A DNA stretch of 57,612 nt from Deltaproteobacteria bacterium (GTDB taxonomy: Bacteria > Desulfobacterota > Syntrophia > Syntrophales > UBA2185). Each line of letters opens with the position of its first letter. Position 1 is the first letter of the stretch. Shown piece by piece: positions 1,415-4,469 of this stretch. The DNA is taken from positions 1 through 57,612 of the forward strand of contig JAPLJS010000078.1 in assembly GCA_026388545.1 (NCBI GenBank), in the 5' to 3' direction. Below the pieces are notes generated by a model, which had not been told where the DNA came from, searched no databases, and was given only the letters and a program-made list of their open reading frames with translations. The position numbers and the translations under genes are program-made.

Positions 1415-2630
<1,216 letters not shown>

Positions 2631-2665: not shown

Positions 2666-2812
2666 TCACTCCGACTTCGGCTTTTCTTCCGACTTATCAA
2701 TTTCCCGCCGCACCCGGTTGGATTCCTTCTTGGCCGCCTTCTTCCGGCCCCAATAAGCGCCGCGTCCTCTCTTTGAGCCGGAGTGCTGGGGTTTTTGAGA
2801 CTGATTTGTCAT
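2666..2812 (-). CDS. Small basic protein between Bro-N gene and cas1
   Basis: A 48-residue open frame starting MTNQSQKPQHSGSKRGRGAY and ending KSEEKPKSE. It is strongly basic in the middle (GRKKAAKKE, NRVRRE) and lacks hydrophobic stretches, so it is probably disordered or nucleic-acid binding. It sits 21 nt after the Bro-N stop and ends 35 nt before the cas1 ATG, filling the gap exactly, with no other frame open. The ribosome binding site is weak. I do not recognise a family. The composition and fit in the operon argue for a real gene; the short length argues for caution. Confidence 0.5.
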   Translation of the reverse strand: MTNQSQKPQHSGSKRGRGAYWGRKKAAKKESNRVRREIDKSEEKPKSE

Positions 2813-2833
2813 GTGAATACACCCTGTCTTCTT

Positions 2834-3682
2834 CTACGCTTTCAGTCGTTTCCTGCTCTCCGGTTCGCTCAGGTAATTTTCCGGCGAGACGACCCGTTTG
2901 CCGGTTTTCTTTTCAAGGTCTTTTCGCGCCTTTCCCGCAACCCCTCCGCCTTTCCGTGCGGCTGTCTTGCTTTCATGGAAGCCCTGCGCGTCATCAACCC
3001 TGGTTATTTCCGTGGTCGCCGCCTCGCCGAGCATCGAGAAGATCAGTTCCAGGTCGGTCATGTGGTCCCGCAGGTTTTCCCGTTTCAGCCCCTTCAATTC
3101 TTTATGCTCGCCGGGTGTAACACCGAACGCTGCTTTTGCGATCTCCGCCGTGAGGATTTTATACTCCTGCTCCTGCTTCACGTCCCGTTTTTTCCACTCG
3201 TCCGTAAGCTCTTCCCTGACGGCGATGCCGCGCATCCGCTTCTCGATCCAGTCATCGGAATACCCCTTGGCCTTATAGATCGCCCGCGACCTTTTCGTTG
3301 CCAGTTCCGGGTCTTCTATTTCCTGAACCCTCTCGTAACCGACTTTTGCCAGCCAGCGCTTGAAGGGTTCGGCCTTAGGGGAAGGGATGGACTGAATGAT
3401 GCGGAAGACGCCTTCTGTGTTGGCGCAATTGACTTTTTGCTTCCCTCCAGGAGTTTCTATCCAAAGGGGGGTGGCAATTTGCCCCCACCCTTTGGATAAC
3501 TCCTCGTCACGACGACGCATATCTTTGATATATCCGGATGGATCCTTTGAATCGGTCAATACATCGACAACATCAGATATCACAAACCACCATTCGTTGT
3601 TATGAAGTGTTTTGCGGATACCCCTGCCTCGAAAAAGAGCAATTTTTGTTTCGATCTGAGGCGGAACATTCTTTTTAGTCAT
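2834..3682 (-). CDS. Bro-N family protein (antirepressor / DinD-like) inside the cas operon
   Basis: A 282-residue protein with an N-terminal Bro-N-like domain, about residues 10-115: FRGRGIRKTLHNNEWWFVIS, then DVVDVLTDS, and a second half with FKRWLAKVGYERVQEIEDP. Bro-N domains occur in phage antirepressors, baculovirus BRO proteins and DinD-like proteins and usually bind DNA. The C-terminal half (IRGIAVREELTDEW-type helices, then a Lys/Arg-rich tail) has no motif I can name. The ATG at 3682 has GGAG 8 nt upstream. It lies between cas5e and cas1 on the same strand, with a 109-nt gap before it. This is not a standard I-E gene. It may be a passenger of phage origin or a regulator; the sequence does not decide. 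Confidence 0.8.
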   Translation of the reverse strand: MTKKNVPPQIETKIALFRGRGIRKTLHNNEWWFVISDVVDVLTDSKDPSGYIKDMRRRDEELSKGWGQIATPLWIETPGGKQKVNCANTEGVFRIIQSIPSPKAEPFKRWLAKVGYERVQEIEDPELATKRSRAIYKAKGYSDDWIEKRMRGIAVREELTDEWKKRDVKQEQEYKILTAEIAKAAFGVTPGEHKELKGLKRENLRDHMTDLELIFSMLGEAATTEITRVDDAQGFHESKTAARKGGGVAGKARKDLEKKTGKRVVSPENYLSEPESRKRLKA

Positions 3683-3791
3683 GATAAAATCTCCATTAAA
3701 TTGCCAATCTATTTAAAATACTATGCCCGCGTCAGAGAAATAAGCCTACAACCGAAACCCTTCGCGGGACCAATGCTTTTCGCATGAAGCA

Positions 3792-4469
3792 TCAACGAAT
3801 CTCTGCACCTTGCAGTGTTCGCACTCTCCTTGGTGAAAACAACCTTCGCTCCGTAGCAAATGATACCGGTGCATCGGGAAGGGTGTCCCGCCCTTCGCTA
3901 AAGGTCTCAACCTCCTCCTGACGAGTGAATGATTTAAGTGATTTCTCTCCAATGAGCAGCCGCAGTGCATCGTCTCGACTATCCTTCAAACCGGCAAAAA
4001 CCGGGGCGGATGGTATACAGGTTTTACGTCCGAGCCAGATGCCCCAGGCAGGATTGCCCAAGGCATTAGCAATCTGTTTGAGTAGTGGTGAAACCCCCGT
4101 TAGGAGAATACCAAAGGACGCATCAGTGAGATATTGCCTGTAGGTGATGTGACAATCCTTGTTTTTTCCTTCTGCGGTCTTGGTATGCTGAACGGTATGA
4201 TAATCCTGCAACCGTCGAACCGGTAGTTCCTTTTTAACGCCACTGCGAGGAATGGCAATGGCGAGCATCCGCACCTTTCCGAATGAGGCAAGAAATGCCT
4301 GTTCCTTTTCACTTCCACGGGGCAGGCCGAGAGCGGCACAACATATTCCTGCAATAGCGCTCTTGGTCGGCATCAAGCCGGTATTTCTTCGATTGTACTG
4401 GCTGTCGAATCCCCAGGATTGAAGGGGACCTTCCAAGCGTAAGACAAGATATCCTTCATCAGATGACAT
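3792..4469 (-). CDS. cas5e: Cascade subunit Cas5e (CasD)
   Basis: A 225-residue Cas5e, which holds the 5' handle of the crRNA at the foot of the Cascade complex. Family features: N-terminal YLVLRLEGPLQSWGFDSQ, the glycine-rich SAIAGICCAALGLPRG, RRLQDYHTVQHT, RQYLTDASF and the late WGIWLGRKTCIPSAPVFAG. The ATG at 4469 overlaps the last 11 nt of cas7e and has AGAGG 9 nt upstream, showing coupled translation. The length is close to E. coli CasD (224). Confidence 0.95.
   Translation of the reverse strand: MSSDEGYLVLRLEGPLQSWGFDSQYNRRNTGLMPTKSAIAGICCAALGLPRGSEKEQAFLASFGKVRMLAIAIPRSGVKKELPVRRLQDYHTVQHTKTAEGKNKDCHITYRQYLTDASFGILLTGVSPLLKQIANALGNPAWGIWLGRKTCIPSAPVFAGLKDSRDDALRLLIGEKSLKSFTRQEEVETFSEGRDTLPDAPVSFATERRLFSPRRVRTLQGAEIR

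Follow-up and report, generated by a model that had tools for sequence, protein, structure and literature searches.

A Bro-N gene recurrent in CRISPR-Cas operons, with an exchangeable core cassette and a palindrome at a fixed codon

Between the effector and adaptation genes of a type I-E CRISPR-Cas operon, in the 57,612-nt stretch of DNA analysed here (the window), lies a gene for a Bro-N protein, BroN, which we tentatively read as a roaming guest gene equipped with a putative DNA-binding site of its own, with one lineage specialised in CRISPR-Cas operons. Relatives of BroN recur in such operons, mostly at the same border, switch between CRISPR types, are under purifying selection, exchange a cassette inside the Bro-N domain and keep a palindrome at a fixed codon. 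The features of the locus are:

38 to 1348, no strand assigned: CRISPR array with a 61-nt period
1415 to 1888, minus strand: cas2e, ORF as listed, the true start being further in
1707 to 2630, minus strand: cas1e, first adaptation gene, with the likely ATG at 2630 (the listed ORF starts at 2669)
2666 to 2812, minus strand: 48-aa basic protein, an occasional companion of guest genes
2834 to 3682, minus strand: BroN guest gene (282 aa; Bro-N domain and helical C-terminal part), from the ORF list, profiles and model
2837 to 3415, minus strand: conserved C-terminal part of BroN, residues 90-282
3425 to 3577, minus strand: exchangeable cassette forming the core of the Bro-N domain, at about residues 36-86 (positions calculated from the ORF)
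3458 to 3498, no strand assigned: coding palindrome with its centre on codon 68, two 20-nt arms separated by 1 nt, and 18 of the 20 positions paired
3721 to 3777, minus strand: fossil 3′ end of a second cas6e, reading SIGPAKGFGCRLISLTRA-stop
3792 to 4469, minus strand: cas5e, last effector gene, from profile matches

A complete type I-E system makes up the operon: cas3-cas8e-cse2-cas6e-cas7e-cas5e followed by cas1e-cas2e and the array. BroN and the 48-residue basic ORF lie between cas5e and cas1e on the operon strand, exactly where the preliminary description had placed them. The tight spacing that it had noted holds for the distances, which are 109 nt between cas5e and BroN, 21 nt between BroN and the small ORF and 35 nt from there to the likely cas1 ATG at 2630; however, the 109-nt gap is not empty and holds the cas6e fossil. 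Promoter-like sites were not above chance (3 versus 2.3 expected), and terminator-like sites numbered 8 versus 3.8 in shuffled sequences, yet none was on the operon strand between cas5e and cas1. On these counts, a promoter or terminator of their own for the inserted genes was rejected.

From the position of the fossil between cas5e and BroN, the effector genes upstream of BroN in the window seem to have been replaced by exchange. The order cas6e-BroN-small protein-RhuM-cas1 is retained at locus L038, from a genome of the same order as the host. Blocks also differ in history among related loci: in L038, L043 and L068, cas1e (and cas2e where present) is 79-92% identical to that of the window, against about 22-33% for the effector genes, and the adaptation block has been swapped between unlike I-E effectors.

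Among 155 genomes of the host's class, BroN relatives occur in 44 and Cas1 in 70. Linkage to CRISPR splits by identity: a cas1 lies no more than 6 kb away from 20 of the 32 relatives of at least 60% identity, but from none of the 36 more distant ones, of which 15 have 50-59% identity and 21 less than 50% (Fisher p 2.7e-9, a test that ignores relatedness). Three further loci of the 32 are in cas operons (G059, where the contig end cuts cas1, and G118, G152, beside cas3). Counted from the other side, BroN is near 21 of the 91 cas1 loci of the class and 6 of the 14 I-E-like ones, and close relatives with empty borders exist (L163-L168, L174-L176, L178); BroN is hence not a core Cas component of type I-E, and its earlier description as a captured gene rather than a standard cas component was borne out.

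In the phylum outside the class, 13 of 20 loci lie in cas operons; these 20 are among the best matches there and were judged by their own neighbourhoods, not by a Cas1 list. Two of the 13 also belong to the named genome collection, where, among the best 80 of at least 569 places, 25 are accompanied by at least two cas genes within 10 kb. Titles among these loci include Syntrophales, Geobacter, Desulfobulbaceae, Nitrospirae and a Marinifilum MAG, and in this collection relatives at 69-87% identity are spread across many phyla. The operons are of types I-C and I-E. A separate Bro-N lineage in a third CRISPR subtype is found in Arcobacter cloacae LMG 26153, whose complete plasmid pACLO has a 46% relative between cas4 and cas1b of a type I-B operon. 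In that operon (L269:5022-18001), a gene for an ATP-binding protein lies between cas3 and cas4. BroN is thus found between cas genes in dozens of genomes, which answers the concern that the arrangement might occur only in the window. Our literature search, with most subscription papers outside its reach, returned no print record of CRISPR-linked Bro-N.

After six duplicates were dropped, 52 distinct CRISPR-embedded copies were available. Thirty-five lie at the effector/adaptation border or between cas4 and cas1 (in two of them cas1 is present but was missed by the ORF picker), 11 lie upstream of the first cas gene, and 6 are at contig edges or in unclear positions. No copy interrupts the cas3-cas5-cas8-cas7 block or separates cas1 from cas2, and none of the 52 was flagged on the strand opposite to its cas genes. 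Recurrence at the same border, together with strong purifying selection on residues 90-270 (median dN/dS 0.058, 16 pairs), argues that the insert is more than chance.

A tree was built on residues 90-282 of 104 sequences, from an alignment of 114 and a pool of 137 full-length genes; it omits rows below 55% identity, hence the absence of Arcobacter. All 43 CRISPR rows fall in one set of 50 (SH-aLRT 88, quick tree), and the CRISPR label requires 6 changes versus a mean of 33.3 for shuffled labels (minimum 25 among 200). Within the CRISPR rows, the I-C versus I-E label requires 12 changes versus a shuffled mean of 10.7, and BroN therefore ignores CRISPR type. The nearest relative of the window BroN is that of L040, from the same GTDB family and in a type I-C operon. 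No flank is shared between the two, similarity stopping where the gene ends, and flanking direct repeats around BroN copies were not above chance; transposon-like insertion was rejected on these two observations.

Phage collections contained 6 records with a BroN relative, all below 60% identity, and viral collections 7 loci. Because searches of phages, plasmids and viruses gave few and distant copies, phage cargo was rejected as the main source. The preliminary description's suggestion of a phage-derived passenger is not supported, given this scarcity beside at least 569 genome places and flanking repeats at chance level. Broken or partial BroN copies lie beside cas1 in G021, G026, G029, G124 and G129, where single frameshifts, coming from draft genomes, may be assembly errors; decay next to an intact cas1 indicates that the gene is dispensable.

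Residues 24-113 of BroN match the Bro-N profile PF02498 (E 4.5e-14, 53.3 bits versus a Pfam gathering score of 25.6), and the profile of the PADLOC candidate PDC-S13 covers residues 11-277 (E 4.6e-114). The profile phrog_15286 also matches (E 3.2e-87), and phage antirepressor-type profiles match weakly, e.g. phrog_2899 (E 3.4e-10). No toxin motif was found in BroN, and sequence matches to Flavivirus NS5 were judged to be chance. The fold model was built from 114 sequences (pLDDT 89.2) and superseded a 15-sequence model (pLDDT 63.9) that was too weak and had no significant PDB match. In the predicted fold, both domains match DdrC from Deinococcus radiodurans (Foldseek E 2.9e-6; Z 14.1, 217 of 223 residues aligned, with an rmsd of 12 that is large over two domains), and DdrC chains were absent from the 8 matches with E up to 10 in the search with the BroN sequence. 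DdrC is described in PMC5436757 as binding single- and double-stranded DNA, protecting DNA from nucleases, and condensing and circularising DNA, and its gene as a Deinococcus-specific damage gene. Because of the DdrC-like fold and of DNA binding by DdrC, BroN is probably, as judged from the model, a DNA-binding protein with damage-response kinship. The earlier idea of a DNA-binding or damage-response factor thus stands as far as probable DNA binding goes, with the predicted fold and the PDC-S13 listing in its favour.

A role of BroN as a regulator of adaptation, also raised in the preliminary description, is possible. As a dedicated accessory it would bind or shield DNA ends and hand them to Cas1-Cas2, which would agree with its place beside cas4 and cas1 in most loci, its recurrence with Cas1 of three subtypes, the DdrC-like fold and the nuclease protection described for DdrC (PMC5436757). 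However, the 11 of 52 copies upstream of the whole operon imply that adaptation need not be the point, most cas1 loci of the class are without BroN, and the same family also lives without CRISPR; we consider a dedicated accessory quite unlikely.

The small protein has a different distribution. It follows BroN in four distinct loci (the window, L038/L076, L129 and L081) and elsewhere precedes RhuM (L038), Fic (L048, L056) or ORF6N (L055), occurring in 5 of the 155 class genomes versus 44 with BroN; no match was found among phages or plasmids. It is an occasional companion of guest genes. Of the pair proposed earlier, BroN recurs widely, but its combination with the small protein is rare, and with four distinct loci a conserved two-gene unit or type II toxin-antitoxin pair was rejected. 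An antitoxin role of the 48-residue protein is a guess by analogy with the small basic Fic partners (YhfG), for which such a role is proposed in PMC2701414.

Other genes occupy the same borders. Among the 31 best matches to the Fic protein found there, a cas1 is within 6 kb of 10 of the 13 with at least 75% identity, against 0 of 11 at 60-74% and 1 of 7 lower. RhuM is within CRISPR borders in 5 of its best 33 matches, and ORF6N and a 23S-IVP-like protein occupy such borders as well. Individual Fic or RhuM border loci are L173, L177, L182, L172, L048 and L049, and in Bacteroides fragilis RhuM is reported between cas1 and cas9 (PMC5704556). The shared presence of BroN, Fic, RhuM and ORF6N points to a general landing site, in which BroN and Fic, at least, have CRISPR-specialised lineages.

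A further possibility is a guard or abortive infection module, in which BroN (Fic or RhuM elsewhere) would harm or stall the cell when CRISPR is blocked or DNA is damaged, and the small protein, where present, would be the antitoxin. BroN is a PADLOC defence candidate, more distant relatives adjoin hsdM and other DNA methylases, RhuM and Fic/Doc are grouped with restriction operons as likely toxins in PMC3710099, and the proposed antitoxin function of small basic Fic partners (PMC2701414) would suit the companion. However, BroN has no toxin motif, the small protein is missing from most BroN loci, and DdrC, as described in PMC5436757, protects DNA and does not harm it; we regard a guard module as unlikely.

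The core of the Bro-N domain, about residues 36-86, is an exchangeable cassette. Window and L040 genes are 96% identical over residues 90-282, with 47-70% gene identity in the stretches that cover the core; window and L036 show the opposite pattern, with a synonymous divergence of 0.34 in the core versus 0.77 in the remainder. Among CRISPR pairs core identity was unrelated to C-terminal identity (Spearman 0.05), and in a control the two halves of the C-terminal part were correlated (0.36, over all pairs).

Within the cassette, a symmetric palindrome is kept at a fixed codon while its sequence changes. Of 114 BroN genes, 104 have their best palindrome centred at residues 67-69, and the arms, 7-20 bp long, have many unrelated sequences (31 distinct inner arms, with 376 of 398 pairs Watson-Crick). 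Synonymous shuffling halves the palindrome score, from 9.67 to 4.93. The pACLO gene of Arcobacter cloacae has a perfect palindrome with 14-bp arms; the palindrome is missing in two relatives (L266, L267), the negative cases being the antirepressor of Bacillus phage PM1 and one Chloroflexota relative. The window palindrome has no second copy in the window at up to 3 mismatches and no operator copies genome-wide, where the single 3-mismatch place equals the count of the reversed control. We infer that the palindrome within the gene is the most likely site for binding by the protein itself; alternatively, recombination or template switching might preserve such palindromes.

A role in RNA, with a hairpin in the mRNA adjusting translation or serving as an RNase cleavage site, would profit from stems that should be stable in mRNA and from a fixed place in the transcript. 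However, arm mismatches were 3 G.T versus 4 A.C, equally rare in these small numbers, and this lack of a G.U excess is a mild argument for DNA over RNA. Moreover, many centres have a 1-nt spacer, which is typical of a dyad and not of a loop, and a role in RNA seems to us decidedly improbable.

According to the roaming-gene explanation that we prefer, a family with a DdrC-like fold would spread horizontally, one of its lineages having specialised in CRISPR-Cas operons, and BroN would move as a bare gene between I-C and I-E operons (with a distant relative in I-B), settling where effector genes stay unbroken, mostly at the border between effector and adaptation genes. If the palindrome is the binding site, an exchange of cassettes would transfer the recognition surface and its target in one piece, and BroN bound at its own palindrome may limit its own transcription. 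Such self-limitation, being independent of context, would make the gene compatible with whatever promoter and operon it joins. Within CRISPR-Cas operons, BroN might act, like DdrC, on DNA ends, nicks or single strands that arise from Cas3 or phage attack, and thereby shift the fate of damaged DNA among repair, degradation and spacer capture. The function of BroN in CRISPR may be such DNA-end handling, a guard role, or none.

The absence of any CRISPR benefit is assumed when BroN is seen as a selfish roaming gene, spread by recombination into tolerant borders of often-exchanged operons, and with cassette exchange driven by the palindrome as a site of recombination or homing. Identities of 69-87% across many phyla, decay of BroN beside intact cas genes, the use of the same borders by Fic and RhuM, cassette breakpoints at the palindrome region and exchange of the effector block at the same border are all consistent with a selfish gene. 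However, one lineage is found mainly in CRISPR operons, with few moves out of them (6 changes), BroN is under strong purifying selection, and flanking repeats do not exceed chance. A purely selfish gene is somewhat unlikely in our judgement.

Coding palindromes are found in some other gene families. In cas1, cas4, cas5, cas6e, cas7, Fic and hsdM genes, scores were within 0.8 of those of synonymous permutations (at most 45 genes per family), and in RhuM and DUF1016/YhcG they reached 9.0 versus 6.55 and 12.55 versus 6.18, respectively. Fresh loci agreed, with 9.6 versus 6.38 for 20 RhuM and 9.7 versus 6.6 for 30 DUF1016 genes; 15 of these 30 score 9 or more, and some low rows, probably wrong longest ORFs, were still counted. 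E. coli yhcG (L206:5828-6955) has three successive palindromes at codons 105, 118 and 131, and yhcG of two other strains differs in the palindrome region and retains two palindromes. Three ORFs named by eye from motifs as KilA-N-like or ORF6N-like also have coding palindromes (L062:3108-3935, L108:9069-9905, L118:8812-9342).

In E. coli dinD, two alleles differ at about codons 12-88 (39-73% identity in 33-nt steps, the remainder 85-100%), K-12 and BLR(DE3) having different ones. The palindrome is centred on codon 63 in both alleles; its arm is 15 nt long in K-12, and the other allele has an imperfect, weaker version (7 genes: L203:3761-4585, L207-L212). Identity to K-12 dinD is two-peaked over the 4668 genomes with a match among 5426 E. 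coli, with 1421 at 99% or more, 511 at 95-99%, 2732 at 80-90% and 4 at 60-80%. The literature search, with the same limited reach into subscription papers, gave no record of coding palindromes in these families.

These families may form a class of roaming genes, comprising CRISPR-linked Bro-N, DinD, RhuM, YhcG/DUF1016 and probably KilA-N and ORF6N, in which the recognition site would be a palindrome inside the coding sequence of the recognising domain. Exchange of a cassette would then switch both, and the gene would come with an internal control of its own in any operon that it joins, CRISPR-Cas and restriction operons included. We put this generalisation forward as possible, although doubtful. 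That the CRISPR-Cas operon border receives recurring guests (Bro-N, Fic and RhuM), with at least two CRISPR-specialised lineages, is a testable rule. Alleles that differ by one cassette and a palindrome at a fixed codon give a first concrete handle on DinD, YhcG, RhuM and Bro-N, which are widespread and obscure in function; should the protein bind its own palindrome, this would explain how such a gene can enter an operon of any kind without disturbing it.

BroN was compared with the closest known systems. It has its Bro-N domain in common with the phage antirepressors (Ant) that carry one, but BroN is chromosomal, in cas operons, with no repressor partner seen. As a cas operon gene with 6 distant phage records and 7 viral loci, it does not fit a phage Ant beside its repressor, and the PM1 antirepressor, unlike BroN, has no palindrome. 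PDC-S13 is a listed candidate defence gene whose profile covers almost the whole of BroN, and its returned description contains neither the CRISPR lineage nor the palindrome. DdrC resembles BroN in predicted fold over both domains, with no sequence match seen, and we know of no occurrence of DdrC in CRISPR operons. RhuM and Fic share the landing borders of BroN and belong to other protein families, RhuM with the palindrome and Fic without. Rickettsia palindromic elements, as described in PMC4316617, resemble the BroN palindrome in being palindromic DNA in frame inside genes, but they are selfish repeats of about 100-150 nt at many places, whereas BroN has one site per gene, at a fixed codon, with unrelated arms. 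The window palindrome has no near-identical copy elsewhere, which does not fit a multicopy element of the Rickettsia type. DinD, the product of an E. coli SOS gene, is like BroN in being of Bro-N type, of similar length, with an allelic N-terminal cassette and a fixed-codon palindrome. The two have the short motif KGLK..DHM..EL in common. Similarity between their sequences is very weak, with BLASTP giving E 0.56 and hhalign a probability of 5% (E 0.0074 in one comparison), and the DinD gene stands alone on the chromosome, unlike BroN in its cas operon.
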